Positions 853 to 22,190 of a stretch of DNA of 64,000 bases are shown here, one piece after another. How positions within the stretch are numbered: position 1 is the first letter of the stretch; every line of letters starts with the position of its first letter. A program made the translations under genes and the position numbers. A model generated the notes under the pieces. That model worked only from the letters and a program-made list of their open reading frames with translations. It ran no database searches and had not been told where the DNA came from. Source of the stretch: Brevundimonas mediterranea (lineage in GTDB: Bacteria; Pseudomonadota; Alphaproteobacteria; Caulobacterales; Caulobacteraceae); NCBI RefSeq assembly GCF_014196125.1, contig NZ_JACIDA010000001.1, positions 1-64,000 on the forward strand, in the 5' to 3' direction.

Positions 853-1461
853 GTGCCAGTCTCTGTGCCCATGGGGGTTTCAGACGACATAGCGCTCTGG
901 CTTGCGCGAAGCGTGATGCCACATGAGCCTGCGCTGCGCGCATGGTTGCGCCGGGGGGCTTCGCCAGCCGACGTTGATGATATTGTGCAGGAAACCTACG
1001 CGAAATTGATCGGTGTCGCGGATGTCGGCTCCATCCGTAACGTGCGCGCTTATCTTTTTCGCACGGCGCAGTCCGCTGCAGTCGATCGCTTAAGACGAAG
1101 GAGCGTGGTGCCGCTCGACGCCGTCGCAGATATCGACAGACTTCAGATGGCCGCAGATGCGGTGACGCCAGAAGATGAAGTCGTGGGCCGCAACGAACTT
1201 CGGCTTCTGGCGAAAATGATCGACCGCCTTCCTGATAAGACGCGTCGTGTCTTCATCCTGAGCCGGGTAGAGGGGCGCTCGCAGAAACAGATTGCCCAGG
1301 AGACGGGATTCCCTGAAAGCACCGTCGAAAAGCACATCGCCAAGGCCTTCGTCCTACTGATGGCCGCCTATGCCGATGGAGGATATGATGCTCCAGATGC
1401 GTCAAGGTTGCGGAACGTGCGGATCGGACGAAGGGCGGATGGCAGGGACGGAAACGGCTGA
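853..1461 (+). CDS. ECF RNA polymerase sigma factor, FecI-like
   Basis: This 202-aa protein has the layout of an extracytoplasmic-function sigma factor. Region 2 lies near residues 25-85, with the DDIVQETYAKL core helix and the -10 recognition stretch around NVRAYLFRTAQSAAVDRLRRR. Region 4 lies near 115-170, with a helix-turn-helix (SQKQIAQETGFPESTVEKH). In FecI/FecR systems such factors direct transcription of the neighbouring TonB receptor. Here fecR overlaps its 3' end and the receptor follows. The GTG at 853 has a GAAGG 4 nt upstream; the in-frame ATG at 871 is an alternative start with no ribosome site. Function is confident by family; the inducing signal is unknown. Confidence 0.88.
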   Translation: MPVSVPMGVSDDIALWLARSVMPHEPALRAWLRRGASPADVDDIVQETYAKLIGVADVGSIRNVRAYLFRTAQSAAVDRLRRRSVVPLDAVADIDRLQMAADAVTPEDEVVGRNELRLLAKMIDRLPDKTRRVFILSRVEGRSQKQIAQETGFPESTVEKHIAKAFVLLMAAYADGGYDAPDASRLRNVRIGRRADGRDGNG

Positions 1462-2383
1462 AGAAATCGATCGTCGCGCGGCCATGTGGGCCGCGCGGCT
1501 TGATCATGGCGCGTTTTCACTTGCGGATCAGCGTGAATTCGACGCGTGGGCGGCGGAGGATCCGCGTCGTTTGGGCGCCTTCGCCCGCGCCCGCGCCATA
1601 GCGCTTCATTCCAAACAGGCGTCCGCCCTGCGCGGCGGCGCCGTTTCAGAGCAACCCGTGATGGCGCGGCGATCTCTGCTGGCGGCCGGAGTCGCCGTGG
1701 CGATGTTGAGCGGCACAGGATTGGCTGCGGCCTACTGGCGACGCTCTCAGCGGCTGGATACGGTGCGCGGCGAAGTCCGGTCGGTCGCCCTGGACGACGG
1801 CAGCGTGGTCACGCTCAACACCCTTTCACGTGTCAGCGTTCGCTATACCCGCTCCGTCCGCGAAGTGGTGCTGATGTACGGGGAAGCCCTGTTCGAGGTG
1901 GCCGTCGATCCGGTCCGGCCTTTCGTCATGCGAGCGGCCGGCGTCGTGCTTACGACCTACGATGGGTCCTTCCTGTTGAAGCGCTTGAATCAGTCTCCGC
2001 TTCAAGTGGCTGCGCTTGCGGGCTCGGTCCATATGCGGGTGGGGCAGGAGCAGGCGCAGATCCTGACCGCCAACCAATTGATCAGCCTCGGCGGAAACGA
2101 TGTTTCAAGCCGTCGTTCCATAGACGCGCGCCAAGGCGACCGACTTCTCGCCTGGCGTGATGGGAAGATCGAATTCCACGACGAAAGCCTGCAGGCGGCC
2201 GCCGCTGAATTCGCCCGGTTCAGCGAAGTCCCGATCGAACTCGCGGATCGAAATGTGGCGGAAATGAAAATCACTGGCCTGTTTGAAGCAAACGATCCGG
2301 CGGCCTTTGCGCGAGCGGCGGCGCGCAGCCTGAATCTGCGCGCAGAAATCAGCACGAGCCGAATTTTGCTCGGTTACGGTTAA
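1439..2383 (+). CDS. FecR-family anti-sigma/sensor protein
   Basis: This 314-aa inner-membrane regulator has a cytoplasmic DUF4880 N-domain (residues 10-55, WAARLDHGAFS...FDAWAAEDP) that would bind the sigma factor. A single membrane segment lies near 78-97, then a periplasmic FecR domain (about 105-200, RGEVRSVALDDGS...LNTLS) and a C-terminal DUF4974-like region (about 250-314). It should relay receptor occupancy to the ECF sigma factor. I chose ATG 1439 because GAAGGG lies just upstream; the longer frame from 1370 runs deep inside the sigma gene. The 23-bp overlap with the sigma gene indicates co-translation. Confidence 0.9.
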   Translation: MAGTETAEEIDRRAAMWAARLDHGAFSLADQREFDAWAAEDPRRLGAFARARAIALHSKQASALRGGAVSEQPVMARRSLLAAGVAVAMLSGTGLAAAYWRRSQRLDTVRGEVRSVALDDGSVVTLNTLSRVSVRYTRSVREVVLMYGEALFEVAVDPVRPFVMRAAGVVLTTYDGSFLLKRLNQSPLQVAALAGSVHMRVGQEQAQILTANQLISLGGNDVSSRRSIDARQGDRLLAWRDGKIEFHDESLQAAAAEFARFSEVPIELADRNVAEMKITGLFEANDPAAFARAAARSLNLRAEISTSRILLGYG

Positions 2384-2478: not shown

Positions 2479-5400
2479 ATGGTGTCGTGGAAGCGATTGT
2501 TGGCGGCGAGCGTGGCTGGGGGAGTGCTTGTCGCGGCGGCCCACGGAGCGGCGGCTCAGGATAGACAGTTCAACGTGGCGGCTCAGCCGTTGGCGCAAGC
2601 CATTCCGGAACTGGCGCGCCAAGCGGGCGTGACAATTTCAGCCCCAACCGGCCACCTTTCCGGCCGGGTCGGGCCTGCGGTCTCGGGCCAAATGGACATC
2701 GAAGACGCGGTCAGCCGACTGCTGGAGGGCACCGATCTCTACATCGCCTCGCACGAGGGATCGACCATCATCCTGCAGAAGCGGAGCGCAGGCGACAGCC
2801 GCGCGGCCGAGGTCCAGGAGGTTGTGGTCGTCGGCAGCCGCATCAGGGGTACGCGCATAAACGAGGCCTTGCCGGTCACCGTCGTCGATCAGTCTGATCT
2901 GGATGCGATCGGCGCCACCGACGGCGACGATCTCTATCGCTCTATCGCCCAGATGGGCGACGTCGGCTTCAACGAGGCGGACAGCGACAACGGCGGCATC
3001 AATAATGCGCGGGGCGATGTGGCGTCGATCGACCTGCGTTCGATCGGGACGGGCAATACGTTGGTTCTGCTGAATGGTCGCAGGCTGGTTCCGCATCCCG
3101 GCACGCAGATCGAAAACTATGTGCCGGTGCAGACCGTCAACACCAACGCCATTCCTACCTTCGGCCTGCGTCGGGTCGAGGTTCTGGCGGACGGCGCCGC
3201 CGCGCTTTACGGCACCGACGCCGTCGCCGGGGTGGTCAACAATGTTCTGCGCGACAATTTCGAAGGCTTCACCGCCCAGGGCGCGATTGGCCGCGACGAA
3301 GGCGGGATGGAGGAATATTCCTTCGATTTTCAGGCTGGCAAGGACTTCAACGACGGCAAGACCAACGTCTCGATCATGGGCGGCTATCTGACGCGAGACC
3401 CGCTCTACATCTGGGAGCGGGACTATGCGACGGTGGAGGGCCGTGTGGCGCGCTTCGGCGGTCGAGCATCCGGCCTGGACTACGGAACCTACAGCACGAT
3501 CACCGCCTGGTCCGAGGGCGTTCGGTTGAATCCCACCACCTACAAGCCCGCGGCCGCGACGACGCGGGTCAACGGCCAGACGCTGACCTCCACGGCCGGA
3601 ACCTTCCATGTTCAACCCAGCACCAATCCGGGATGTCTGGCGAACGGCTTCGTCGCGGGCACCTGTTTCGACAACTCGACTTTGGCGACGACGACCGAGG
3701 ACGCCAACCTTCGCTACGACCTCGACACGATGCGGACCATCAGCTCGGCTGTGGATCGCGCCAATCTGTTCAGCTTCGTCAATCACCGGTTCGACAACGG
3801 CGTCGAGGTCTTCGGCGAGTTGGGCTACTACTGGGGCGAGACTTGGTCGCAGCGGCAACAGGACACGCCGCTTGAGACGATTCAGCGCGTTCTGATGTCG
3901 CCGACGGCCTATTGGAACCCCCTGGGGGCGGTCGGGGTGACGGCGCGCCTGCCGGGCTTGACGACGGGCACCGGAACCGCCGCCTTCCCCGCGGGCGGAG
4001 CGGCCGTGGAGGTTCAGGACTTCCGCTTCTCCGACCTGGGCTATCGCACGATCGAGGTCGAGAACATCACCACCCGCTATCTGGGCGGTCTGCGCGGGCA
4101 ATGGCGCGGCTTCGACTGGGAATCCGCGGTCCTGTACAGCAAGGCCAAGGTCACCGACCAGATGGACGGCATCAGCATGACCGGGCTCCAGGCGGCTATC
4201 AACAGGACGACGCCCGACGCCTATAATCCCTTCGTCGGCGGTGATCTGACCAGCCCTAAGGACGGCGCGTTCGGCCTGAACAACCAGGCGACCATTGATA
4301 CGATGCTGGTCAAGGTCTACCGCGAGGCCGAGACCGAGCTGATGCAGTGGGATTTCAAGGTCTCGAAAGCCGATCTCTTCCGTCTGCCTGGCGGCGATGT
4401 CGGTATGGCGGGTGGGGTCGAGGCGCGGCGGGAGACTTTCGCCGAAGATCGCGACCCGCGTCTGGATGGAACCATCACCTTCACGGACCTGGCGGGCGGC
4501 GTCTCCATGAGCGACGTCATGGGCGTGACCTATACGCCTGACAGCCATGGAGCGCGGAACGTCTATTCCGCCTTCCTTGAGGCGGCCATTCCAGTGGTCT
4601 CGCCCGAGATGAAGATTCCCTGGGTCCAGTCGATCGACGTTCAACTGGCCGGCCGGGTCGAGCAGTATTCCCTGTTCGGCACCGTCGCCGCGCCGAAGGT
4701 CGCCCTGGCCTATCGGCCAAACGATTGGCTGATGTTCCGCAGCGCCTGGTCCCAGGGTTTCCGCGCGCCCAATCTGCTGCAACTGCACCAGCCGGATTTC
4801 GAGCGGTCCAACGCTCGCCGCGACTACGCCGCCTGCGCCGTTCAACTGGCTATCGGCGCCATTCCCACCCTGACGACCAGCAACGACTACTGCACCAGCG
4901 AAAGCCGGATCGAGCGCCGCGCCGGCAATAAGGATTTGAAGGCGGAGGACTCTGAAAACCTGAGCGTCGGTGTCGTGTTCGAACCCAAGCTCTGGGATGA
5001 TCGTTTCGGCGACCTGACCTTCACCGTCGATTACTGGAAGATCCGTCAGGAGAACCTAGTGGGGATTTTCGGCGGCACGAACCAGCTGATCATGGACTAT
5101 TATCTGCGCCAGATCGGCAGTTCGAACCCGAACGTCATCCGCGCGGAGCCGGACGCCCAGCAGATCGCTGATGCGGCGGCGGCGCGACTGGCCCCCGTCG
5201 GAACCTTGGCGTCGATCAAGGACGACTACATGAACCTTCAGCCGCGCGAGTCGGAAGGTCTGGATTTCAGAGTTTTCTACAGTGTGCGGAACACGCCGAC
5301 GGGCGACTGGCGTATCAGCTTGAACGCCAGCCAGAAGCTGAAACTCTACCAGGAACCCAGCGAACAGCATCAGACGCTGCTGGACGCTCTGGCGGCCGGG

Positions 5401-5790
5401 GTCATTTCCGGTGTCTCCATCAGCGGAGTGGAAGACCTGATCGGCCGTAACGGCCGCCCGGAATGGAAGATGACGGCCTCGGTAACATGGAGCCTCGGGC
5501 CTTGGACGTCAGGCTGGTATTCCAGCTATGTCTCCGAGTTCGACGACACCAGCGCCACATACGTCAACACCGAAATACCCTGGGTCATCAAGGAGTGGCT
5601 GACCCACAATCTTTACTTCCAATATGAGTTCGACAAGGACGGTCCGGCGGGCGGGGCGCGCCTGCGGGTGGGAGCGAGGAACATCTTCGATGAAGATCCG
5701 CCGTTGGCGGACGATCGCTTCGGCTATTCGGGAAGCGTCCACTCCAATCGTGGCCGCTGGTGGTACGCCAGCATCCGCAAGTCCTTCTGA
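2479..5790 (+). CDS. TonB-dependent outer-membrane receptor with STN signalling domain
   Basis: This 1,103-aa protein begins with a signal peptide (about 1-27, cleavage after AHGAAA). A secretin/TonB N-terminal (STN) domain follows at about 30-95 (FNVAAQPLAQAIPELARQAG). The plug lies at about 115-250 (VVVVGSRIRGTRIN..., LVLLNGRRLVPHPG, RRVEVLADGAAALYG), then a long beta-barrel ending in the outer-membrane signature ASIRKSF. The STN domain is the part that talks to FecR, so with the two upstream genes this is a trans-envelope signalling receptor. Its length and plug resemble the oar/peptide-type receptors of Caulobacterales more than short siderophore receptors. The ligand cannot be read from sequence; the downstream peptidase and symporter suggest peptides. 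An 11-bp hairpin follows its stop codon. Confidence 0.92.
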   Translation: MVSWKRLLAASVAGGVLVAAAHGAAAQDRQFNVAAQPLAQAIPELARQAGVTISAPTGHLSGRVGPAVSGQMDIEDAVSRLLEGTDLYIASHEGSTIILQKRSAGDSRAAEVQEVVVVGSRIRGTRINEALPVTVVDQSDLDAIGATDGDDLYRSIAQMGDVGFNEADSDNGGINNARGDVASIDLRSIGTGNTLVLLNGRRLVPHPGTQIENYVPVQTVNTNAIPTFGLRRVEVLADGAAALYGTDAVAGVVNNVLRDNFEGFTAQGAIGRDEGGMEEYSFDFQAGKDFNDGKTNVSIMGGYLTRDPLYIWERDYATVEGRVARFGGRASGLDYGTYSTITAWSEGVRLNPTTYKPAAATTRVNGQTLTSTAGTFHVQPSTNPGCLANGFVAGTCFDNSTLATTTEDANLRYDLDTMRTISSAVDRANLFSFVNHRFDNGVEVFGELGYYWGETWSQRQQDTPLETIQRVLMSPTAYWNPLGAVGVTARLPGLTTGTGTAAFPAGGAAVEVQDFRFSDLGYRTIEVENITTRYLGGLRGQWRGFDWESAVLYSKAKVTDQMDGISMTGLQAAINRTTPDAYNPFVGGDLTSPKDGAFGLNNQATIDTMLVKVYREAETELMQWDFKVSKADLFRLPGGDVGMAGGVEARRETFAEDRDPRLDGTITFTDLAGGVSMSDVMGVTYTPDSHGARNVYSAFLEAAIPVVSPEMKIPWVQSIDVQLAGRVEQYSLFGTVAAPKVALAYRPNDWLMFRSAWSQGFRAPNLLQLHQPDFERSNARRDYAACAVQLAIGAIPTLTTSNDYCTSESRIERRAGNKDLKAEDSENLSVGVVFEPKLWDDRFGDLTFTVDYWKIRQENLVGIFGGTNQLIMDYYLRQIGSSNPNVIRAEPDAQQIADAAAARLAPVGTLASIKDDYMNLQPRESEGLDFRVFYSVRNTPTGDWRISLNASQKLKLYQEPSEQHQTLLDALAAGVISGVSISGVEDLIGRNGRPEWKMTASVTWSLGPWTSGWYSSYVSEFDDTSATYVNTEIPWVIKEWLTHNLYFQYEFDKDGPAGGARLRVGARNIFDEDPPLADDRFGYSGSVHSNRGRWWYASIRKSF

Positions 5791-5797
5791 GGACAGA

Positions 5798-5826
5798 GCT
5801 CGGGCGAGTGTTCGCCTCGCCCGAGC
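5798..5826 (+). terminator. Intercistronic hairpin after the receptor gene
   Basis: GCTCGGGCGAG (5798-5808) pairs perfectly with CTCGCCCGAGC (5816-5826) across a 7-nt loop. No T tract follows, and the next ribosome site is a few bases on. It is more likely an attenuator or mRNA-stabilising hairpin than a full terminator, and would lower symporter expression relative to the receptor. Confidence 0.6.
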
Positions 5827-5842
5827 CTTCCAGGAAATCGAC

Positions 5843-7135
5843 ATGTCTTCGCTTGCGCCTTCGGCGGGTTTGTTCCGACCGGTTCGACTTGCCGCGCGCC
5901 TGTGGTTCGCCACGCCGCTGTGGCGAAGGATACTGATGGGTCTGGCGCTCGGCGCGTTCGCAGGCGTGGTGCTGGGTGAACGCGCCCAGGACCTGAAATG
6001 GATCGGCGATCTTTTCGTTCGCCTCATCCGTATGCTGGTGACCCCGCTCGTCTTCGTCACCGTCGCCGCCGGCGTGTCCGCCATGTCCGATCCGGCGCGG
6101 CTGGGGTCGGCCGGTCTCAAGACCATGCTCCTATATTTCGGCTTGATGCTGATCGGCGCGGCCATCGGGCTGGGAGTCGGCGCCCTTGTGCAGCCGGGCG
6201 CCGGCATCGATCTCGACGGGGTCGTCCCCGCGCCCCTGGCCGAGGCGCAAGACCTGCCCGCCATCCTGACGAACATCGTGCCTCTGAACCCCATCGCGGC
6301 CATGGCGGAGGGAGACGTCCTCGCCGTCATCTTCTTCGCTCTGCTGATCGGCGGCGCGTTGCTGGTGACGGGCGAGGAGGGGCGGCCCTTGCGGAGGGTT
6401 CTGGAGTCGGGTTCCGCCGTTCTGCTGCGGGTTGTTCAGTTCGTGATGGAACTGGCGCCGTTCGGCGTCTTCGCTCTGATCGCCTGGGTGATGGGAACCA
6501 GCGGACCATCGGCCTTCGTCAGCGTGTTGCGGCTGTCCTGCTGCGTGCTCCTAGGCGCCGCGATTCAGACCTTCATCGTCCACGGCGCCGTTCTTCGGCT
6601 GATCGCGCGTGTCCCGGTCTTGCCGTTCTACCGCGACATCGTTGACGCCGTGGCGGTGGCCTTTTCGACATCGTCCAGTGCGGCGACCCTGCCCGTGGCG
6701 CTGAGGGTGGCGCAGCGGAATCTCGGCGTCAGTCCGGCCATAGCCTCGACGGTGCTGCCGCTGGGGGTGACGCTCAGCATGGATGGAACCGCCCTCTATG
6801 TCGGCCTGCTGGCCGCCTTTTCCGCTCAGGTGTTCGGCGTCGCCCTGGGGCCGGCCGACTATCTTGCCATAGTCGCAGTGACGGCCCTCGTGGCCCTGGG
6901 CGCCGCGCCTGTGCCGTCAGCCTCGCTGTTTCTGCTGGCGGCGGTTCTTTCCGTGATTGGGCTAGGGCCCGAGCAAACGGCTTTGATCGTCGGCTTCATC
7001 CTGCCGTTCGACCGACCGCTGGATATGATCCGCACCGTGCCGAACTGCACCAGTGACCTGGCCGTGGCCGTCGCCGTGGCCCGTATGGAAGGGGAGCTGG
7101 ACCTCGTAATCTACCAGGAAAGACCGTTGGAATGA
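5843..7135 (+). CDS. Glutamate/dicarboxylate:cation symporter (SDF/DAACS family)
   Basis: This 430-aa inner-membrane protein belongs to the GltP/DctA family. The re-entrant serine-rich hairpin 1 reads STSSSAATLP. TM7 reads LSMDGTALY, where the family usually has NMDGT. TM8 reads DRPLDMIRTVPNCTSD, keeping the Asp and Arg that bind the amino group and side-chain carboxylate of aspartate or glutamate in characterised homologues. It should therefore import an acidic amino acid or C4-dicarboxylate. I chose ATG 5843 (AGGAAA just upstream); the frame opens earlier inside the receptor gene. Its stop overlaps the gamma-glutamyltranspeptidase start as ATGA, so the two are translationally coupled, matching a transporter to the product of that enzyme. 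The Asn-to-Ser change in TM7 touches a cation site in homologues and may alter ion coupling. Confidence 0.87.
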   Translation: MSSLAPSAGLFRPVRLAARLWFATPLWRRILMGLALGAFAGVVLGERAQDLKWIGDLFVRLIRMLVTPLVFVTVAAGVSAMSDPARLGSAGLKTMLLYFGLMLIGAAIGLGVGALVQPGAGIDLDGVVPAPLAEAQDLPAILTNIVPLNPIAAMAEGDVLAVIFFALLIGGALLVTGEEGRPLRRVLESGSAVLLRVVQFVMELAPFGVFALIAWVMGTSGPSAFVSVLRLSCCVLLGAAIQTFIVHGAVLRLIARVPVLPFYRDIVDAVAVAFSTSSSAATLPVALRVAQRNLGVSPAIASTVLPLGVTLSMDGTALYVGLLAAFSAQVFGVALGPADYLAIVAVTALVALGAAPVPSASLFLLAAVLSVIGLGPEQTALIVGFILPFDRPLDMIRTVPNCTSDLAVAVAVARMEGELDLVIYQERPLE

Positions 7136-8838
7136 GCCGTCTCTACTCCCTTCTGCCGGCGTTTCTCGCGGCCCTATTGGCCCTCGCACCTTGCGTTCAG
7201 GCGCAGGAGCAGCCTGAGGCGCTCCTGAACTATGAGTCGGTCCACCATCCGGTGATCTCGACCACCGGTCTGGTCGTCAGCCAGAACGACATCGCCAGCC
7301 GGGTCGGCGCCGACATACTCGCCAGGGGCGGCAATGCGGTCGATGCGGCGGTGGCGACGGGGTTTGCGCTGGCCGTCACCCTGCCGCGCGCCGGGAACCT
7401 CGGGGGCGACGGCTTTATGCTGGTCTATGTGGCGGCCGAGGGCCGGACCTATGCGCTCGACTATCGTTCGGTCGCGCCTCTGGCGGCCAAACCCGCCCTT
7501 TATGACCAGGAGCCACGCGATGCGCGCTATGGCTATCGCGCGTCCGGGGTGCCGGGCTCCGTGGCCGGACTGGCGCATGCCCATGCGCGTTGGGGGCGAC
7601 TGCCTTGGGCCGAACTGATTGAGCCGGCGCGGAAGCTTGCGGCCGATGGCGTGACGCTGAGCCATGACTCGGCCTACGCCCTGTCCTGGTCCAAAGACGT
7701 TCTCGGCCATTGGGAAGCCGGGCGTGGCATCTTCCTCCAAACCGGCGGAGCCCCCTGGCGACCGGGCGACACCCTGGTCCAGAGCGATCTGGCCTGGACC
7801 CTGGGCGAGATCCAGCGCGACGGCGCCGACGCCTTCTACAGGGGCGCGGTGGCGGATCGGATCGTGGCCTCGATGCAGGCGCACGGCGGGCTGATCACGC
7901 ACGAGGATCTGGCGCGCTACCAACCGATCGAGCGGGCGCCGATCGAGACCGAGTATCGCGGCCACCGCGTCGTCACCATGCCGCCCTCCAGCGCCGGCGG
8001 CGTAATGTTGCTGGAGCTGCTCAACCTTGTCGAACGCTTCGATCTGAAGGCCATGGGGGCGGACACCGCCGCCAGTCTGCATGTCATGTCCGAGGCGATG
8101 AAGCTGGCCCAGCTGGATCGCACCCGTTACATCGGCGACCCCGACTTCAGCACCCTTCCGACGGCCCAGCTGACGTCCCAGGCCTATGCTGATCGCCGTT
8201 CCAGCCTGATTTCCACCGACAGCCTCCTGCCAGCCCCAAGCCTGGTCCCCGGCGATCCCTGGGAGGTCGAAGGGATCGACACCACCCATTTCTCCGTCGT
8301 GGACAGCGAGGGAAACGCGGTCTCCAACACCTACACCCTGGGTTCCTCGTTCGGTTCCGGCGCTGTGGTCGATGGGGCGGGCTTTCTGCTGAACGACCAG
8401 ATGAAGAACTTCAACCGGCGCATGCGTGCGGATGGGCGTCCCGTGACGGCGAACGGGATGGAGCCAGGCAAGCGGATGATCTCGACCATGGCCCCGACCA
8501 TCGTGTTCCAGGATGGTCGCCCCTGGCTGGTCACAGGCACGCCCGGCGGGTCGACCATTCCCAACAGCCTGTTTCAGTTGATCGTAAACACCGTCGATCA
8601 CGGGATGAACCTGGCCGAGGCCACGACGACGCCCCGCGTCCATCAGGACGGGGCGACCGGCGATCTTCAGGTCGAGTCAGGTCTGAACCGTGACACGATC
8701 CGACTCCTCGAGGCCTTGGGCCACAAGGTCGTGGTCGGTCAGACGATCGGCAGCAGCCAATCGATTCTGATCGGCGACGGCATGCTGATGGGCGCGGCGG
8801 ATCCCCGCCGACCGGATTCGGCGGCGATCATGCCCTGA
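7132..8838 (+). CDS. ggt: Gamma-glutamyltranspeptidase, periplasmic
   Basis: This 568-aa Ntn-hydrolase cleaves gamma-glutamyl bonds (glutathione, gamma-glutamyl peptides). A signal peptide covers about residues 1-24 (ALAPCVQAQ). The autoprocessing site is intact: the small subunit would begin at Thr384 in DTTHFSVVD, the catalytic threonine. NTYTLGSSFGSG and GTPGGSTIPNSLFQ form the glutamate-binding and oxyanion regions. Length matches the family. It overlaps the symporter stop by 4 nt and is followed after about 37 nt by a hydrolase gene, so the three form one transcript. Released glutamate would be a natural substrate for the symporter. Confidence 0.94.
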   Translation: MSRLYSLLPAFLAALLALAPCVQAQEQPEALLNYESVHHPVISTTGLVVSQNDIASRVGADILARGGNAVDAAVATGFALAVTLPRAGNLGGDGFMLVYVAAEGRTYALDYRSVAPLAAKPALYDQEPRDARYGYRASGVPGSVAGLAHAHARWGRLPWAELIEPARKLAADGVTLSHDSAYALSWSKDVLGHWEAGRGIFLQTGGAPWRPGDTLVQSDLAWTLGEIQRDGADAFYRGAVADRIVASMQAHGGLITHEDLARYQPIERAPIETEYRGHRVVTMPPSSAGGVMLLELLNLVERFDLKAMGADTAASLHVMSEAMKLAQLDRTRYIGDPDFSTLPTAQLTSQAYADRRSSLISTDSLLPAPSLVPGDPWEVEGIDTTHFSVVDSEGNAVSNTYTLGSSFGSGAVVDGAGFLLNDQMKNFNRRMRADGRPVTANGMEPGKRMISTMAPTIVFQDGRPWLVTGTPGGSTIPNSLFQLIVNTVDHGMNLAEATTTPRVHQDGATGDLQVESGLNRDTIRLLEALGHKVVVGQTIGSSQSILIGDGMLMGAADPRRPDSAAIMP

Positions 8839-8875
8839 ATGGAATCACAAATCCGTCTTCATGGAGAACAGGACG

Positions 8876-9775
8876 ATGAAAGGGCTGATGATGGCGACCG
8901 CCGTCGCGGCGATTGTGGCCGCATCCACGCCGGCCTCTGCCCGACAGGACGCAGCGACGCCGCCGGCGACCGAACAGACCGTCGGCGAGCGGATCGTGTT
9001 TCGCAGCATGGACGAGCCGCGCACCGAACTGGTCGGCTATCTGTTTCGGCCTGCGGGGCCGACGCCGGAAGGCGGAGCCCCGGCCGTGGTGCTGATGCAC
9101 GGTCGGGGCGGCGTCTATTCGTCCCTGGCCGACGGAGTCTATGAGGCCCAGAACCTGACGCTACGGCTTAAGTTCTGGGCCGACTACTGGACTGACCGTG
9201 GCTATTACGTCCTGGTGGTCGATAGCTTCGGGCCGCGGGGCTATCCGACCGGTTTTGCAGCGGGGACCTACAGTTCGCGGCCGCCAGAGGTCAATGAGGT
9301 GACGATACGACCGCTGGACGCCTATGGCGCGCTGCGGTTCCTGCGCGGTGTGGACGGCGTGGCGGACGATCGTGTCGGCCTGATGGGCTTTTCCAACGGC
9401 GCCAGCACCGTCCTGTCGGCTTTGGCCGACGACAAGCCCGGCGACATGCGGCGGATCGGTTTCCGGGCGGGTGTCGCCCTATACCCGGGCTGCGGCCTGC
9501 AGGGCCGGTTCCGACAAGCCTACAAGACCTATGCGCCCGTCGAAGTCTTCATGGGCACAGCCGATCAGGAGGTGTCGCCCGAGAGCTGCCGGACGCTGGT
9601 TGATCGCGCGCAGGCGGCGGGCGCTCCGGTGAATCTGACCCTCTATCCGGACGCGGCCCACGGCTTCGACGATCCCAGCCGCAGCCGGCAGTCGGTCGCC
9701 GCCAACGCAACCGCCACCCAGGACGTTCGCACTCGGGTCGATCGCTTCTTCGAAGTTCAGCTGGCGCCCCGCTGA
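8876..9775 (+). CDS. Secreted dienelactone-hydrolase-family alpha/beta hydrolase
   Basis: This 299-aa protein has a signal peptide (about 1-23, ASTPASARQ). The DLH-type fold shows a strand and oxyanion motif VVLMHGRGG near residue 75, the nucleophile elbow GFSNGAS (Ser) near 170, a catalytic Asp region MGTADQEVSP, and the histidine in YPDAAHGFDDP near 265. The substrate is unknown; many family members are carboxyl-ester or peptide-ester hydrolases. ATG 8876 is preferred over 8861 because GGAG lies 9 nt upstream. It is the last gene of the plus-strand operon and ends at a strong bidirectional terminator. Confidence 0.82.
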   Translation: MKGLMMATAVAAIVAASTPASARQDAATPPATEQTVGERIVFRSMDEPRTELVGYLFRPAGPTPEGGAPAVVLMHGRGGVYSSLADGVYEAQNLTLRLKFWADYWTDRGYYVLVVDSFGPRGYPTGFAAGTYSSRPPEVNEVTIRPLDAYGALRFLRGVDGVADDRVGLMGFSNGASTVLSALADDKPGDMRRIGFRAGVALYPGCGLQGRFRQAYKTYAPVEVFMGTADQEVSPESCRTLVDRAQAAGAPVNLTLYPDAAHGFDDPSRSRQSVAANATATQDVRTRVDRFFEVQLAPR

Positions 9776-9794
9776 CTTCAGATCAAAGCGAGGA

Positions 9795-9832
9795 GAGGGC
9801 GTCGGCCGCAAGGCCGACGCCCTCTTTCGTTT
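9795..9832. terminator. Bidirectional terminator between convergent operons
   Basis: GAGGGCGTCGGCC (9795-9807) pairs perfectly with GGCCGACGCCCTC (9812-9824) around a GCAA tetraloop, with TTTCGTTT downstream. It sits between the hydrolase stop and the stop of the convergent M14 peptidase gene. Confidence 0.93.
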
Positions 9833-12549
9833 CAGGATCCCGGCGCGGCGGCCGGGCCGTAGAACAGGGCGTTGAACAACAGGCGGACCGAGGCGCGGGC
9901 CTGGGCGCGATTGATGACGTCCGGCGCCAGGATGATCATCCGCCCCTGGCCCATTGGCGCATCCACTACGGCGGCGGCGCCGGCCAGCTTCTCCGGACCT
10001 ATGGCCCATCCGCTGGTCACCACGGCAGGCGAGGGATAGCGGGCGGCGACTCGCGCGTCCCCCCGCGCCGTGAAGGCGGCGTTCTCGTCGAAAAAGACAT
10101 TCAGTCGGGCCGGGAGGCCATAGGCCAGCGGGTCGGCGGGATCGACGTCCAACGCCAGAAGCGCGCCGGGGATGAAGAACTCGGTGGAGGGCAGGGGCGT
10201 GCGACGCCCTCCATTCCCCGTCGATAGGAGGTCGTCGATCAGCGCGCCCAAGGCCAGCGCCAGTTTGTCGGCCGAACCAGCGGTGACGATCGTACCCCCT
10301 GCCTCGGCGAAGGTGCTCAACTGCGGAAGAGTGTGTTCCTGCGTGATACTGCCCAGCCACGGACGATAGGCCTCCGGAATCGTCTCAGGATCGGGCTGAC
10401 CACGCCCGGTCCCATTCGGGAAGTCGCCGGGCAGTAGATCGGGCGCGAAGACAAGGACGTCGAAATCCTTCTTCAAATCCCCGGCGTCGAGACGCTGCGG
10501 GTAGACGACCTCAAAAGGAAACTCGAACTGCTCCAGCAACCAGCGGGTCCAGCCGGCCGACATGGAGCCGCCGTAACGATCCACCAGCCCGATCCGCACA
10601 GGCTTCAGCGCCATGGCGTCTCCGCCCGGCGCGCGCGCCACGGCCTCGGCGTTCAGGCCGAGTTCGGCGACCGCCTGTTCGACGAGGGCGCGGGACACGT
10701 CGCTTGCCGGTATCCACAAGGCGCCCGGCGCGAGGGTGCGGGCGCCGACACGCACCTCGGCCTTCTGCCAAAAGACCGGCTGCCCCGCCTTCAGCAGGCG
10801 ATTGGTCAGGATGAAGCTGTTGATCGCCGCATGGTCGATGATGAACCCCGCCTTGCCCTGTCCTCGAACCTGACCAACCGGGACGGTAATGAGATCGGGC
10901 ACAGGCTCCAGAGGCGCCTCGAACGCATCGAGAATACGGTCGAACTTCACCCCCATCTGCAGCGCGAGCGTATAGCCGGTGGCGTCATAGGGCAGGGCGG
11001 GGGGACCGCCGGGATACTGCAGGTCGTGCGGATGGTCCTGCGGCTCGAACATGTCCAGCACATGCGGCCGATAGGCCTGGTTCGTCCGCACGACGAAAGA
11101 CCCGGCCGGATAGGACGCTCCGGCGATGGAGAAGTCGCGGGCGGCGCGATCGACGTCCACGCCGGTCTTGATCAGGCTGTTGAGGAAGGCGATCGCGGTC
11201 GGCAGGTCGGCCTGGTCCGCCGGGATCACATAAGCGCGCGGATCGCGCTGCGCGGGGTCGTGCAACACCTTGTCGTACAGAGCCGGGTCGACCGTGCGCC
11301 CGGTCTGACTGGACGCAGCCTTCAAGGCTTCGATGCGGGTCGGCGTGACGCGCCAGCTGTCGGTCTCGCCCCTTGCAATGGCGTTCGACCCCATGCGCCA
11401 GATATTGAACAGCAGCCGGTCGCGGTTGCGCGACGCATAATCGAGCACCGCCCGGTTGATCGAGAGCGAATAGTCGATCGACTGTCGGAAACGCCAGGTC
11501 TGCGGCGCGATCGGAGCTGGCAGGTCGTTGCGGGGCAGCTGGTTGTCCGGAACCAGGGCGATGCGACTCGGGGTGGGGTGGCCGGTGATTTCCGTCAGCA
11601 GGCCGATTGAATTGTGAAAATAGGTGATCGACCGCTCCATGCCGTTGTTCCAGGTGGAATAACGGGCGCCGCTGCGCATGGTCGCCCCGGGCTTGCCTTC
11701 GACCACCAGCCGGTTGTGCATGGCGGCGGCGACCTCCGACAGGGCGGTCATCGCCAGGGGATCATAGTTATAGTTGAAGGGGTCACGGAACGGCGGCATG
11801 AACACGACCGTCCCCGCCGGCGCCGGCTGATGGTGGTTGTAGACGATCTGGGGGAACCACTCCCGGAACAACATGCGGTTGACGTTGGTCGTCTCCGTCA
11901 TCGCAGACAGATAGTAGTCGCGGTTGTTGTCGTGGCCGACATAGGCCTGATACAGGCGCGGCAAGCTGGCGAACTCACGCTTCTCCGGGTCGCTCTCGCG
12001 CATGTACCAGTCGGAAACCAGGTCCCAGCCGTCCGGATTCAGCGGCGCAAACAGGATGATCACGTCGTCCAGCACCCGCAGGGCCTCCGGATCCTGGGCC
12101 GTCACCCATTCATGGACGGCGGCGATCAGGGCCTGGGGCGGCACGGTCTCCGTCGCGTGAAGGCCGCCATCGATCCAGACCACGGCCTTGCCCTCGGCCG
12201 CCAGGGCCCGCGCCTCGGCCTCATCGACGCCCTCAGCCTTGGCCAGGCGCCGCGCGATATCGCGGTAGTGATCCAGGCGGGCGATGTTCGCTGGCGATGA
12301 GACTGCGGCGACATACTGGGTGCGCCCCTCGGTCGTCTTGCCGATCTCCATCAGCTTCATACGATCCGACTGGCTGGCGAGGGTGTGAAGATAGGCTTCG
12401 AACTGCCGGTAGTTGATCAGTTGATAGTCATCGCCGACGTCATGTCCAAACGCCTCATGCGGTGAGGTAATATGATCGGTCTGAGCGGCTGCCGGTCCCC
12501 CAAGCAGGGCGCTCGCGATCACAATCGCAGCGCAAATTCGGTTGAACAT
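9832..12549 (-). CDS. M14-family zinc carboxypeptidase, secreted, 905 aa
   Basis: The protein has a signal peptide (1-22, LLGGPAAAQ). The M14 metallo-carboxypeptidase domain covers about residues 35-400: the zinc motif is GGLHATETV (His and Glu) near 128-133, followed by LNPDGWDL and a downstream His pair in YNHHQPAPAG. The C-terminal half (about 640-900) contains RIGLVDRYGGSMSAGW and VLVFAPDLLPGDFP and looks like a glutamine-amidotransferase-like fold; such extra domains occur in large bacterial M14 proteins. It would cut C-terminal residues or gamma-D-glutamyl/peptide bonds outside the cytoplasm. GGAG lies 8 nt before the ATG. It converges on the receptor/ggt operon and shares its terminator, so it is regulated separately. 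Confidence 0.88.
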   Translation of the reverse strand: MFNRICAAIVIASALLGGPAAAQTDHITSPHEAFGHDVGDDYQLINYRQFEAYLHTLASQSDRMKLMEIGKTTEGRTQYVAAVSSPANIARLDHYRDIARRLAKAEGVDEAEARALAAEGKAVVWIDGGLHATETVPPQALIAAVHEWVTAQDPEALRVLDDVIILFAPLNPDGWDLVSDWYMRESDPEKREFASLPRLYQAYVGHDNNRDYYLSAMTETTNVNRMLFREWFPQIVYNHHQPAPAGTVVFMPPFRDPFNYNYDPLAMTALSEVAAAMHNRLVVEGKPGATMRSGARYSTWNNGMERSITYFHNSIGLLTEITGHPTPSRIALVPDNQLPRNDLPAPIAPQTWRFRQSIDYSLSINRAVLDYASRNRDRLLFNIWRMGSNAIARGETDSWRVTPTRIEALKAASSQTGRTVDPALYDKVLHDPAQRDPRAYVIPADQADLPTAIAFLNSLIKTGVDVDRAARDFSIAGASYPAGSFVVRTNQAYRPHVLDMFEPQDHPHDLQYPGGPPALPYDATGYTLALQMGVKFDRILDAFEAPLEPVPDLITVPVGQVRGQGKAGFIIDHAAINSFILTNRLLKAGQPVFWQKAEVRVGARTLAPGALWIPASDVSRALVEQAVAELGLNAEAVARAPGGDAMALKPVRIGLVDRYGGSMSAGWTRWLLEQFEFPFEVVYPQRLDAGDLKKDFDVLVFAPDLLPGDFPNGTGRGQPDPETIPEAYRPWLGSITQEHTLPQLSTFAEAGGTIVTAGSADKLALALGALIDDLLSTGNGGRRTPLPSTEFFIPGALLALDVDPADPLAYGLPARLNVFFDENAAFTARGDARVAARYPSPAVVTSGWAIGPEKLAGAAAVVDAPMGQGRMIILAPDVINRAQARASVRLLFNALFYGPAAAPGS

Positions 12550-13038: not shown

Positions 13039-15168
13039 TCAGAAGCGTCGGCTGAGGCTGAGGCGAATGACGCGACCCAGGGGGTCCTGATCGTCGCGAC
13101 CATAGGCCGGCGCCGGGCGACCATCCCCCAGGGTCGCGGTCGGCCGCGCGTCGAAGAGGTTTTCCACCTCCAGTTCCAGCCGCAAGCCCTGAGTGCGACG
13201 GCGCGGCCCCGTGTCCGAGGCCTCGCTCCTGGGCGGCGACAGGACGGTGCTGAGGGTGAAGCCGATCAGGGTCAGGGGCGACAGAAGCAGATCGTCAGGG
13301 CCGTCCTGCCCCAGATCGCGACGAAGGCGCGCGCCGCTTCGCCAGGTCGCCGCAAGGTTCAAACCCCATCGCGCGTATCGTCCGTCGAGCCGCAACGCCA
13401 ACTGATGACGCGACAGGCCGCCGCCGTCTCCGGCGAGTTGATCAAGGCGGGGCAGGGCTTCGTCTATCGTGATGCGATCCTCCAGCCGCCAGGTGTGGTT
13501 GAAGGCGACCTGGACGGAGCCCCGCCTGGACGCCCCCGGCGTCCCGCTCCCGAGCGGAATATTAGCGGTCAGGCCCGACGAGAGGGTTTGGGACGAGATC
13601 GCTTTGAGATTGATCGGCCGCTGGTCGATGCCCGTCAGGCGGCCTGAGGCGTCGCGCAGGATACGGTCCGGAAAGGCCGTCTCGGTCGCCGGCGTCAGGG
13701 CGGGAAGGGCCCCGATCGCATTCGTCGCCCGCGTGTTCTGAAGATCGACACTGGCCTGAAGACCCCAAGCGCCGAAGGGACCTGTCGATCCCGAGAGGGA
13801 CAGGGTTTGCGTCTCTTGGGCCTGAAGGTCCGGAGCGCCGCCGAGAATCGGCTGGATCTCGACGGCTTCGCCGCGGCGGAAGTCATAGAATGTGCGCGGC
13901 GGCCCATAGCGGATCGGGTCGAACCGCTGTTCACGGGTGGGCGCATCGGTCGCCTGAGCGAACTGCGCGCCCAGACGGATTCTCCCGGACGGCGACCAGG
14001 AGACGCCGGCGTTCAGCCCCGTCCCCTGGGCGTCGGCCTCGTCGAACAGTCTCAGGCGGCCGCCCAGATTGAGCGCTAGGTCGCCCAGCAACCGCCGGGG
14101 CCCGTCCCCGTCTGACTGCGAGGACGTGACCGGCAGGGTCAGGCCGGATCGGAGCTCGAGCGCGCGAGACGAGGGGGTTGCGGTTACGCCGGCGGCCCTG
14201 ATGTCGGACCTGGAGCGAAGATACTGCGTATCGACCGTCATCTGGGCGGGGCCGGCCGGCAGGTCGATCAGGGTCCGGTCGGCCGAGAGCTTCGCGACGG
14301 CCGACACCGTGCGGGCCGTCACATCCGTCGCGCCCGTTTGCCGGCCTTCCGAGACCAGACCATCGAGCCCCCATCTCACCGACCATCCCAGGGCGCGCCC
14401 CGCCAGGCCCCCGGCCATGGTCAGGGCGTCTGTTTCCTGTCGGGTTTCCGCTCTGTCCGCCGTTGCGACCGAACTTGAGACGAAGCGGTCCTGCCGGGTC
14501 TGCAGACTTGCGCTGAACGAGGTCGACCAGTCTGACAGGGTTCCGGTCGCCGATAGGTTCACCGAGGCCGTTTGCGCCTGCGGGCGGAGCGTGTTTCCGC
14601 CGCCGCCCGGGTGGTCTCGACCATAGCCTGGCCGCTCGTCCGCCCAGAGCGGCGTGGTCCTCGCGCCCTGAAGGCCCATCTGGAAGGTCGAGGAACCCTG
14701 GATTTCTGATTGGCGTGCGTCAAGCGAGAGGGTCGTCGTTCCACCGGCTGTCGGCCGGGACGCCTTCGCCAGAGCGTCACGGCTTCTGAACTCGGGCTCC
14801 AGAACGATGTTGACGACCCGCCGCCCAGGATCGCCGCCGTAGAGGGCGCCCGCCTGCGGTGGCAGGGCTTCGACGCGGACCAGGGCGTCGGGCGGGAAGC
14901 CCGTGAAGTTTCGGGCGTCCACGACCGGGCGGCCGTTTACGATCACAACGGGCGGTTGCTGGAAGCCCAGACGTTCGCTGAGGCGAGCGATCACCTCGCC
15001 TATGTCGTAGGCGCCGAGGTTGTCGATTTCTTCGGGCCCAAGCTCCTGCTCTGGCGCGACCCTGGCCGCACCGCGTCGCCCGACCACTTCGACCTCTTCC
15101 AACTGGGCGGGCGAAGGCGAAGCGGGCGGCGCTTCCTGGACGGGGATGAGAGCGAGAAGGGCCAGCAC
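13039..15168 (-). CDS. TonB-dependent receptor-like outer-membrane protein
   Basis: This 709-aa protein begins at a GTG. It has a short leader (MLALLALIPVQEAPP) and a TonB-box-like stretch, EEVEVVGRRG. A compact plug at about 50-130 carries VVIVNGRPVVDARN and VRVEALPPQAGALYGG. A beta-barrel follows and ends with LSLSRRF. The plug is shorter than usual, and the N-terminus lacks a clear cleavable signal, so either the true start lies elsewhere or the leader is atypical. Barrel length is normal for a small receptor. No ligand can be inferred. It ends in a repeat/terminator region and follows a small secreted-protein gene on the same strand, separated by a terminator. Confidence 0.75.
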   Translation of the reverse strand: MLALLALIPVQEAPPASPSPAQLEEVEVVGRRGAARVAPEQELGPEEIDNLGAYDIGEVIARLSERLGFQQPPVVIVNGRPVVDARNFTGFPPDALVRVEALPPQAGALYGGDPGRRVVNIVLEPEFRSRDALAKASRPTAGGTTTLSLDARQSEIQGSSTFQMGLQGARTTPLWADERPGYGRDHPGGGGNTLRPQAQTASVNLSATGTLSDWSTSFSASLQTRQDRFVSSSVATADRAETRQETDALTMAGGLAGRALGWSVRWGLDGLVSEGRQTGATDVTARTVSAVAKLSADRTLIDLPAGPAQMTVDTQYLRSRSDIRAAGVTATPSSRALELRSGLTLPVTSSQSDGDGPRRLLGDLALNLGGRLRLFDEADAQGTGLNAGVSWSPSGRIRLGAQFAQATDAPTREQRFDPIRYGPPRTFYDFRRGEAVEIQPILGGAPDLQAQETQTLSLSGSTGPFGAWGLQASVDLQNTRATNAIGALPALTPATETAFPDRILRDASGRLTGIDQRPINLKAISSQTLSSGLTANIPLGSGTPGASRRGSVQVAFNHTWRLEDRITIDEALPRLDQLAGDGGGLSRHQLALRLDGRYARWGLNLAATWRSGARLRRDLGQDGPDDLLLSPLTLIGFTLSTVLSPPRSEASDTGPRRRTQGLRLELEVENLFDARPTATLGDGRPAPAYGRDDQDPLGRVIRLSLSRRF

Positions 15169-19007: not shown

Positions 19008-19132
19008 GAAGTCCTCCCGAAGCGCGCCGGTCTGTCGGCGGCGCGTGATGTGCGTTTCCTCCCGCCTGATGTTTCCGCTCGACGGGGCGGGGCCACCGGC
19101 GGTTGTCGGCAACTTCGCACTACTCACCGTCA

Positions 19133-19150
19133 TGTCAATACATATTGACA
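19133..19150. promoter_or_regulatory. Perfect palindromic operator candidate
   Basis: TGTCAATA (19133-19140), CA, TATTGACA (19143-19150) is a two-fold symmetric 18-mer. It lies in the divergent promoter region, 126 bp from the TonB receptor start and 84 bp from the FAD dehydrogenase start. The same octamer TGTCAATA occurs at 22192-22199 over the tetR start codon, suggesting a common regulator. Confidence 0.65.
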
Positions 19151-19233
19151 GCAGTGTTGGTTGACGGTCATCCGGAATGGGGGAGTTCGGATGTCGATCT
19201 TCATCCGCGCGCGTCGCGAAAAAGGGGAAACAG

Positions 19234-20901
19234 ATGGACTATGATGCCGTGATCGTCGGCGCCGGACTGGCGGGCCTGGTCGCCGCCAACGAGCTGGTTC
19301 AGGCCGGCCGAAGAGTGGCGCTGGTGGATCAGGAGAACGCCGCAAACCTGGGCGGGCAGGCCCACTGGTCATTCGGCGGCCTGTTCCTGGTCGACAGCCC
19401 CGAGCAGCGTCGCCTGGGCGTCCGCGACGGCTTTGATCTCGCGTGGTCGGATTGGCGGGGCAGCGCGGGCTGGGATCGGCTGGACGGCCCGCTTGCCGAG
19501 GATCAGTGGGCGGTGCGGTGGGGAAAGGCCTATGTCGAATTCGCGGCCGGTGAGAAACGCGCCTGGTTACGGCGTCACGGGATACGACTGACGCCTATGG
19601 TCGGCTGGGCCGAGCGGGGGGACGGTCGCGCCGACGGTCACGGCAACTCGGTCCCCCGGTTCCATGTCGCATGGGGCACAGGGACCGGCGTGAGCGGCCC
19701 GTTCGCGGCCCGGGCGCGCGATGCCGAGACACGCGGCAGGCTGGCGTATCACCCGCGTTGTCGCGTCGACGACCTGATCGTTGAAGCGGGGAGGGTCACA
19801 GGCATATCGGGCGTTCGACTGGCGCCGGACGCGGCCGGACGCGGCCTGGCCTCCAATCGGGATGCGGTGGGATCCTTCACCCTGCGGGCTCCGTCGGTGC
19901 TGATCGCTACGGGCGGGATCGGCGGGGATCATGACAAGGTGCGGCGTCTGTGGCCCGAGCGCCTGGGAAGTCCGCCCCGCGAGATGGTCAGGGGCGTGCC
20001 CGCCTATGTCGATGGACGGGGGCTGGACATCGCCGAGGCGGCCGGGGCCCGCGTCGTGAACCGTGACCGGATGTGGCACTATGTCGAGGGTCTGCGGAAT
20101 TGGAACCCGATCTGGCCAGGGCACGGCATCCGCATCCTGCCCGGCCCGTCGTCCCTCTGGCTCGACGCCCTTGGGCGCCGCCTGCCGTTTCCGGCCCTGC
20201 CGGGCTATGATACGCTTTCGACTCTTCGCCACCTGCGAACCACGCCCGACCTCGCGGCGCACGATCACTCCTGGTTTGTTCTGACCCAGGCGATCATCGA
20301 AAAGGAGTTCGCGCTCTCCGGATCGGAGCAGAATGGCGACATCACCTCTGGAGACTGGCTGAGAGTGCTCAGAACCCGGTTGGGCAAGGGCGCGTCGCCG
20401 GAGGTCGAGGCGTTCAAGGCGCACGGCGCCGACTTCGTGGTCGCCGACGCCCTCGACGACCTCGTCGCAGGGATGAATGCTCTGACCCCGACGCCCTTGC
20501 TGGACGTCGAGGGGGTGCGGCGGGTGATCGCGGCCCGGGACGCGCAGATCGACAACCCCTACGCCAAGGACCTTCAGATCCAGGGCGTTCACAACGCCCG
20601 CCGCTACCTGGGCGATCGTCTCGCCCGGGTCGCAAAACCGCATCGTCTTCTCGATCCCGGGTCCGGTCCGTTGATCGCCGTCAAGCTGCATGTCCTGACG
20701 CGCAAAAGCCTGGGCGGAATTCAGACCGATCTGGACAGTCGCGTTCTCAAGCCTGACGGAACAGTGCTCGAAGGCTTGTACGCGGCCGGCGAAGCCGCGG
20801 GGTTCGGGGGCGGCGGCGCCCATGGGTACAACGCCCTGGAAGGCACGTTCCTGGGCGGATGCCTCTTTACGGGACGCGCCGCCGGTCGGGCCATGGCCTG
20901 A
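19234..20901 (+). CDS. FAD-binding dehydrogenase (KstD/PRK12834-like)
   Basis: This 555-aa flavoprotein has an N-terminal Rossmann FAD motif (VIVGAGLAGLVAANEL, residues 7-22) followed by GGQAHWSFGGLF. A central substrate domain contains LIATGGIGGDHDKVRRLWP near 230. The C-terminal FAD motif reads GLYAAGEAAGFGGGGAHGYNALEG. It belongs to the FAD_binding_2 group with fumarate reductases and 3-ketosteroid Delta1-dehydrogenases; within it the length and glycine-rich C-terminus match the PRK12834 type of unknown substrate. ATG 19234 has AAAGGGGAAA upstream; an earlier in-frame start at 19177 overlaps the promoter. It is paired divergently with a TonB receptor, so the two probably act on one imported compound. 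Confidence 0.85.
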   Translation: MDYDAVIVGAGLAGLVAANELVQAGRRVALVDQENAANLGGQAHWSFGGLFLVDSPEQRRLGVRDGFDLAWSDWRGSAGWDRLDGPLAEDQWAVRWGKAYVEFAAGEKRAWLRRHGIRLTPMVGWAERGDGRADGHGNSVPRFHVAWGTGTGVSGPFAARARDAETRGRLAYHPRCRVDDLIVEAGRVTGISGVRLAPDAAGRGLASNRDAVGSFTLRAPSVLIATGGIGGDHDKVRRLWPERLGSPPREMVRGVPAYVDGRGLDIAEAAGARVVNRDRMWHYVEGLRNWNPIWPGHGIRILPGPSSLWLDALGRRLPFPALPGYDTLSTLRHLRTTPDLAAHDHSWFVLTQAIIEKEFALSGSEQNGDITSGDWLRVLRTRLGKGASPEVEAFKAHGADFVVADALDDLVAGMNALTPTPLLDVEGVRRVIAARDAQIDNPYAKDLQIQGVHNARRYLGDRLARVAKPHRLLDPGSGPLIAVKLHVLTRKSLGGIQTDLDSRVLKPDGTVLEGLYAAGEAAGFGGGGAHGYNALEGTFLGGCLFTGRAAGRAMA

Positions 20902-20910
20902 CCGGCGGCC

Positions 20911-22130: not shown

Positions 22131-22168
22131 TTGCTCTCTCCCAGGACTGAGCTTAACCAGTTGCTATC

Positions 22169-22180
22169 TACATGGATGTA
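22169..22180. promoter_or_regulatory. Inverted repeat in the coq4-like/tetR divergent promoter
   Basis: TACAT-GG-ATGTA lies 11 nt before the tetR start codon and 39 nt upstream of the Coq4-like start. Imperfect symmetry extends outward. It is placed where a TetR autoregulator normally binds. Confidence 0.45.
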
Positions 22181-22190
22181 ACTAACACTA

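Follow-up and report, generated by a model that had tools for sequence, protein, structure and literature searches.

A FecIR-type locus of Brevundimonas mediterranea with a possible role in the use of glutamate-containing peptides

Gene content and organization of the locus

The window, i.e., the whole stretch of B. mediterranea DNA analyzed here, is 64,000 nucleotides long. The genes of the locus, the profile matches on which they were assigned and the residues discussed below are listed in Table 1. A sequence-only reading had placed a receptor, a symporter, a gene of the gamma-glutamyltranspeptidase (GGT) family and a hydrolase in a row under an ECF sigma/FecR pair, with a convergent M14 carboxypeptidase of 905 amino acid residues next to them and the GGT gene ATGA-coupled to the symporter gene. 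All of these genes were confirmed by profile matches, and the overlap and the convergent orientation were also found as described. The sigma/FecR pair (853–2383) lies upstream of positions 2479–12549, within which that reading had drawn the locus.

Table 1. Features of the locus in the window.
Feature	Position	Strand	Evidence and remarks
ECF sigma factor, FecI type	853..1461	+	PF08281 58.8 bits, PF04542, TIGR02937 74.7 bits; alternative start ATG at 871
FecR anti-sigma/signal relay	1370..2383	+	PF04773 43.2 bits, DUF4880; exact start uncertain, at or after 1370
STN-domain TonB-dependent receptor, 1103 aa	2479..5790	+	PF00593, PF07715, PF07660 (STN below cut-off)
SDF-family acidic amino-acid symporter	5843..7135	+	PF00375 357 bits; alignment to 9bgz and GltPh
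Symporter codon equivalent to GltPh D394	7022-7024	+	Alignment
Symporter codon equivalent to GltPh R397	7031-7033	+	Alignment
ATGA overlap, symporter stop/ggt start	7132..7135	+	Sequence
GGT-superfamily (T3) hydrolase (predicted)	7132..8838	+	PF01019 549 bits; TIGR00066 508 bits (cut-off 357.85); residue map
GGT R112, equivalent to E. coli R114	7465-7467	+	Residue map
GGT Thr nucleophile T384, equivalent to E. coli T391	8281-8283	+	Residue map
GGT N426, equivalent to E. coli D433	8407-8409	+	Gap-free alignment stretch to E. coli GGT
Alpha/beta hydrolase (DLH/S9-like), 304 aa	8861..9775	+	Profile matches; signal-peptide-like start by eye
M14 zinc peptidase, 905 aa, convergent	9832..12549	-	PF00246 83.6 bits; signal-peptide-like start by eye

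The order FecI-FecR-receptor-symporter-hydrolase-M14 was found again, at 83–98% identity and without ggt, in three genomes of the same genus. Because it recurs in this way, the gene order is, by this comparison, far from chance. A search for the gene order in relatives had been proposed as a check of the sequence-only reading; the order was kept in these genomes, but the GGT gene was missing from it. Among plasmid records, the best DNA match to the locus covered no more than 6% of its length, and the GGT homologs that a protein search found in 318 plasmid records were less than 60% identical.

Beyond the M14 gene, an open reading frame (ORF) of 709 amino acid residues (13039–15168, minus strand) reads like an outer-membrane receptor and matched no Pfam family. 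Positions 16032–22805 contain another TonB receptor, which has no STN match and is divergent from a gene for an FAD-binding oxidoreductase (19177–20901), and a TetR-type regulator is nearby (22191–22805).

The receptor and cell-surface signaling

The barrel and plug domains of the receptor scored above the Pfam cut-offs, and its STN part scored 23.4 bits versus a cut-off of 28.4. Its relatives were taken from the fetched loci as those with at least 35% identity over at least 850 amino acid residues, with the window excluded. An STN part and a FecR gene directly upstream on the same strand were both present in 27 of these 71 receptors and both absent from the other 44. Since the two features agreed in 71 of 71 relatives, there is strong support from these comparisons for the receptor being run by cell-surface signaling. 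In the window, genes for an ECF sigma factor, FecR and the STN-domain receptor are adjacent, which places the locus among FecIR systems with an STN part that is below the Pfam cut-off. Among solved structures, the receptor matched only weakly those for siderophores, haem, colicins and metallophores.

The partners around this receptor family varied and included M14, M20 and Met-zincin peptidases as well as amidohydrolases, of which the one scanned matched Xaa-Pro dipeptidase best, below the cut-off. In one locus (L153:10077-12143), a distant GGT-superfamily protein, 29% identical to that of the window, is encoded divergently from a receptor of this family. Searches of open-licence literature, judged by titles and the beginnings of abstracts, gave no description of a FecIR/TonB locus for gamma-glutamyl or D-glutamyl peptides.

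The symporter

The start of the symporter gene is most likely at 5843, judged by reading of the sequence and alignment to its family, and not at 5624 where the mechanical ORF begins. The closest solved relative by sequence is 9bgz, an "Aspartate transporter." Transmembrane segment 8 (TM8) of the symporter is DRPLDMIRTVPNCTSD, and alignment to 9bgz and GltPh showed that the equivalents of GltPh D394, R397, N401 and D405 are kept. In GltPh, D394 and R397 bind acidic amino acids, and the earlier observation that the TM8 Asp and Arg are retained is thus borne out. With an SDF-family match and this residue pair, the protein has the features of SDF acidic amino-acid symporters, with scores below the NCBIfam cut-offs for both GltP (169.7 versus 638) and DctA (219.2 versus 513 and 199.4 versus 570).

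In four loci (L124, L125, L188, and L189) whose receptors are 70–73% identical to that of the window, the symporter belongs to a different SDF lineage, 32–34% identical to the window symporter. Asp394 and Arg397 were kept in the two of these symporters whose TM8 was read (L124 and L125), and the one scanned (L124) was below both the GltP and the DctA cut-offs. That the symporter gene was swapped while the binding residues stayed the same speaks for import of acidic amino acids being part of what the locus does.

SDF genes were also seen in other settings. In a second receptor clade of 13 loci (L143, L144, L149–L152, and L154–L160), a DctA-like SDF gene with Ser at position 394 is directly upstream of the receptor gene. 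The one scanned of these 13 (L144) was above the DctA cut-off and adjoins a sensor kinase and an NtrC-type regulator. Partner ORFs of 424–474 amino acid residues in L144, L149, L152 and L154 matched no Pfam family. Moreover, in L264, L265, L267 and L271 a window-type symporter is near an ORF of 1204 amino acid residues, and the one scanned (L264) is a biotin-dependent carboxylase with CT_A_B/CT_C_D domains.

Association with D-glutamate genes

D-glutamate is gamma-linked in peptidoglycan. In five loci (L068, L069, L078, L179, and L182), dgcN and dgcA are directly upstream of the receptor gene on the same strand. The NCBIfam equivalog cut-offs were passed by both DgcN homologs scanned (509 and 523 versus 480) and by all eight DgcA homologs scanned (414–441 versus 400). 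DgcN and DgcA form a route from D-glutamate, a peptidoglycan component, to L-glutamate (PMC10845958).

In the sample of 149 genomes from the family, DgcN was found at 26 places in 25 genomes, with nine places over the cut-off. Seven of these nine are at a window-type symporter; three are the receptor loci L068, L069 and L078, and in four (L220, L221, L222, and L224) a symporter 59–62% identical to that of the window follows dgcA. Of the remaining two, L219 is cut off by the end of its contig before a symporter gene could be seen, and L223 has none after dgcA. No window-type symporter was found at the 14 fetched places with DgcN below the cut-off, of 17 such places, the three left out being in G125, G003 and G069. 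Viewed from the symporter, 27 places in 24 of the 149 genomes have a window-type gene, and 15 of them have a homolog of DgcA, an N-acetyl-D-glutamate racemase, within 6 kb (one is a fragment of 75 amino acid residues); the other 12, including the window, do not.

A search of the window genome did not find DgcN, and the best DgcA score was 35.9 bits versus the cut-off of 400. Because the genome has neither DgcN nor a DgcA over the cut-off, the link of the window to D-glutamate would rest on kinship, that is, the kinship of its symporter and of the locus as a whole.

The GGT-superfamily enzyme

In E. coli GGT, Asp433 binds the alpha-amino group of the substrate and Arg114 binds its alpha-carboxylate. 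The window enzyme is about 45% identical to E. coli GGT (MEROPS T3), matches PF01019 and TIGR00066, and keeps the Thr391 nucleophile, Arg114, Gln430 and the Gly483-484 pair. It differs in having Asn at the position of Asp433, Gly404 at that of Asn411 and Thr at that of Ser463.

In a maximum-likelihood tree of 72 GGT homologs, 29 of 30 proteins with Asn433 formed one clade (support 98/100). It comprised 12 with Arg114, including that of the window (96/84), 16 with Tyr114 (100/100), which thus lack the Arg for the alpha-carboxylate, as well as a single Arg114 protein of a gammaproteobacterial MAG. The only Asn433 protein outside the clade, on a long branch, was that of an acidobacterial MAG. Among loci with flanks, with the window excluded and the two MAG proteins scored as negatives, 26 of 29 Asn433 GGT genes had a receptor of this family within 5 kb (Arg114, 11/13; Tyr114, 15/16, or 9/10 when six loci found via their symporter or receptor, L179–L182, L190 and L191, are left out). 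For canonical GGTs with Arg114 and Asp433 the count was 0 of 46, three of these loci having less than 1 kb of flank on one side, and one of the 46 has another TonB-receptor-like neighbor.

A second type of GGT, GGT2, has Asp433 and was found beside the receptor in six of seven cases (L068, L078, and L179–L182), always together with an Asn433 gene. In an altered form, the gamma-glutamyl idea is thus revived by GGT2 in these six loci and DgcN-DgcA in five, which point to D-glutamate rather than to glutathione or folates. The window genome encodes two further GGT homologs. One (G000:C2:316780-318351) is of the Asp433 type and 55–58% identical to GGT2 of other receptor loci, and the other (G000:C1:95173-96672) is divergent, with neither Arg114 nor Asp433.

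Changes at position 433 have been studied previously. According to a review, the engineered D433N variant of E. coli GGT no longer carried out transpeptidation, had 82% of its hydrolysis left and acquired acylase activity on glutaryl-7-ACA, and the D445N change cost BsGGT 90% of its activity; class IV cephalosporin acylases have Asn at position 433, and D-glutamine served as a donor for a bacterial GGT (PMC8062742). Bgh1 of H. bilis, a natural GGT homolog with the same Asp-to-Asn change among others, is reported to be unprocessed, inactive on gamma-Glu-pNA and devoid of a signal peptide, and its strain to have no acylase activity on glutaryl-7-ACA (PMC3279353). By a constant offset of +11, Bgh1 would also share the Ser-to-Thr change. 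The window enzyme is predicted to be a hydrolase and not a transpeptidase, acting possibly on gamma-glutamyl groups with a blocked alpha-amino group and a free alpha-carboxylate; it may also have lost activity altogether.

Distribution in the genus and deletions of ggt

Genes in relatives were assigned from mechanical ORFs by BLASTP to a small reference set, and unmatched neighbors are named only where they were scanned. At E ≤ 1e-300, the receptor was found in 16 of 131 genomes of the same genus. All 16 loci were read and genes were counted within 8 kb of the receptor gene, as far as contigs allowed, some of which end nearby (L189 has 1.4 kb after the receptor gene). FecI and FecR were present in 14 of 16 loci, the hydrolase in 12 and the M14 peptidase in 9. 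An SDF symporter was found in 13 loci (nine of the window type and four of the other lineage), leaving three with none. An Asn433 GGT was found in seven loci (that of the window with Arg114 and six with Tyr114) and was absent or deleted in nine; in one of the nine genomes (G122), a Tyr114 GGT is encoded about 11 kb away, beside another receptor. Finally, GGT2 was found in four loci and DgcN-DgcA in two.

L122 and L176 share a ggt deletion with the same junction. In L122, a remnant of the ggt start scored 40, where 1000 shuffles reached 36 at most, and a remnant of the last 45 bases of ggt scored 47 versus 34 in shuffles. At a different junction in L123, the first part of ggt (score of 119 versus 46) runs on in frame into the hydrolase gene. 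The ggt end retained in L122 is missing from L123, which in turn has a longer piece of the ggt start. Because each keeps parts of ggt that the other has lost, the two deletions are independent and neither derives from the other. In all three loci the receptor, symporter, hydrolase and M14 genes persist, and the rest of the locus is 83–98% identical to the window. In L177, a ggt remnant was sought and none scored above shuffles. The fusion in L123 (L123:4945-5907, minus strand) joins the signal-peptide start of ggt to the alpha/beta hydrolase to give a chimera of 321 amino acid residues.

Having been lost twice independently, in three close relatives whose loci are otherwise intact in gene content, ggt is, on the loci compared, accessory. 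These deletions rule out ggt as the core of the system, and insertion of ggt into the window lineage is ruled out by the remnants in the ggt-less L122, L176 and L123. With Asn in place of Asp433, Gly in place of Asn411, membership in the Asn433 clade and deletion in three close relatives, the label "gamma-glutamyltranspeptidase" of the sequence-only reading is weakened, and a canonical transpeptidase is to be doubted.

The alpha/beta hydrolase and the M14 peptidase

S178, D235 and H267 of the hydrolase and H131, E134, R210, H240 and E320 of the M14 peptidase were invariant in eight orthologs of each. The hydrolase matched only DLH and the S9 hydrolase domain, with no propeller domain. When solved structures were searched by profile, the M14 peptidase matched nothing but a segment of a carboxypeptidase B. 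An orthologous relationship with E. coli MpaA, a murein-tripeptide amidase of the M14 type, was rejected, as pairwise BLASTP gave no meaningful match (best E 0.95).

Proposed function and alternatives

We propose, tentatively and with a probability of about 0.45, that this is a FecIR-type locus for sensing, importing and dismantling a glutamate-containing peptide, most likely a gamma-linked (D-)glutamyl one such as a murein stem peptide. The proposal builds on gene content and order, active-site changes, conserved partners, co-occurrence and the ggt deletions, all observed here. Going by what is known of these families, the STN receptor would bind the peptide outside the cell, signal via FecR to the sigma factor and pass the peptide into the periplasm by means of TonB. 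There it would be cut by the M14 peptidase and the alpha/beta hydrolase, as well as by the GGT-superfamily enzyme in loci that have one, and the freed acidic amino acid would enter through the SDF symporter. The enzymes are presumed periplasmic from starts that look like signal peptides by eye; export, substrate, D-stereochemistry and catalysis are likewise predictions from sequence. The logic of the sequence-only reading, with TonB uptake under signal control, hydrolysis in the periplasm and symport of acidic amino acids, is supported here. Its framing around glutathione, folates and poly-gamma-glutamate holds only in part, because the key enzyme is altered and dispensable.

A more specific version, which we consider unlikely as it stands, is that the FecIR/TonB system harvests peptidoglycan stem peptides and that a GGT lineage has come to hydrolyze N-acylated gamma-D-glutamyl bonds in an endo-acting manner. 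Drawn from residue roles and neighboring genes, it would have Asp433 lost because L-Ala blocks the alpha-amino group, and a free alpha-carboxylate would explain why Arg114 was retained; the Tyr114 enzymes, in which the carboxylate Arg is also lost, would serve alpha-amidated (D-isoglutamine) walls.

General peptide scavenging, with an oligopeptide receptor, interchangeable peptidases and an Asn433 enzyme repurposed as an amidase or acylase that is not particularly linked to glutamate, would explain the varied partners of the receptor family, Tyr114 enzymes that lack both glutamate-binding residues and the dispensable ggt. We regard it as doubtful, although worth keeping in mind, given that acidic amino-acid symporters and DgcA/DgcN are recurrent partners. 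The same pairing with D-glutamate genes in relatives, the clade-wide change of Asp433, the loss of the Asn411 equivalent and the persistence of the locus after deletion of ggt speak against a canonical GGT that frees L-glutamate from glutathione, folate polyglutamates or poly-gamma-glutamate for import by the symporter, and no glutathione gene was among the neighbor ORFs scanned, a portion of the total. A TIGR00066 score over the cut-off, the retained Thr nucleophile, Arg114, Gln430 and Gly-Gly, the Asp/Arg pair of the symporter and the Asp433-type GGT2 of six related loci are all as this explanation would have them, and we rate it as unlikely rather than negligible.

Import of a peptidic or acidic metal chelate, with enzymes that free the metal or recycle the ligand, would account for the FecI-FecR-STN architecture and the weak matches to solved siderophore, haem, colicin and metallophore receptors. 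It is very improbable, as the conserved partners are peptidases and an amino-acid symporter and no iron or siderophore gene was among the scanned part of the neighbor ORFs. It is less probable still that the locus takes up and opens a peptide of the lasso type or one with some other side-chain linkage: the sigma/anti-sigma/TonB architecture is shared with reported isopeptidase clusters (PMC9266682), and a DLH/S9 hydrolase is present, but this has 304 amino acid residues and no propeller.

If the proposed processing of a glutamate-containing peptide is correct, FecI/FecR signaling would reach beyond metals to a nutrient in the form of a glutamate peptide, possibly from the cell wall, and a function could be assigned to the receptor-linked GGT clade. 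It would also predict that the enzyme is a hydrolase rather than a transpeptidase, that D-glutamate is transported by one defined clade of SDF proteins and that there is a natural Asn433 enzyme similar to the engineered cephalosporin acylase. For these bacteria, annotation of a gene as "GGT" need not mean glutathione metabolism.

Comparison with known systems

Similar to FecA-FecI-FecR loci, the window has genes for an ECF sigma factor, a FecR with PF04773 and an STN receptor adjoining on one strand. Different from them, it combines these with peptidases and a symporter for acidic amino acids instead of iron transport genes, and the scores against the equivalogs were 75.3 bits for FecR (cut-off 385), 64.3 for FecI (260) and 47.4 for FecA (1100). 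Similar to class IV cephalosporin acylases as described in a review (PMC8062742), the window enzyme has Asn433; its context, however, is receptor-linked. The genes of DgcN-DgcA D-glutamate catabolism adjoin genes of the locus in relatives of the window, but the pair that makes up the pathway is missing from the window genome. The ycjG-mpaA-ycjY-mppA stretch of E. coli, which holds murein-peptide genes, has a similar mix of an epimerase-type enzyme (matched in the window's relatives), an enzyme of the M14 type and an alpha/beta hydrolase. However, it has neither a TonB receptor nor an SDF gene, the window M14 peptidase is unmatched to MpaA, and the hydrolase is 21% identical to YcjY over 152 amino acid residues (E 5e-5). 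Finally, lasso-peptide isopeptidase clusters are reported also to combine a TonB receptor, sigma/anti-sigma factors and a peptidase (PMC9266682), but their isopeptidases join a propeller to the hydrolase domain, whereas the hydrolase at the window locus has no propeller match.
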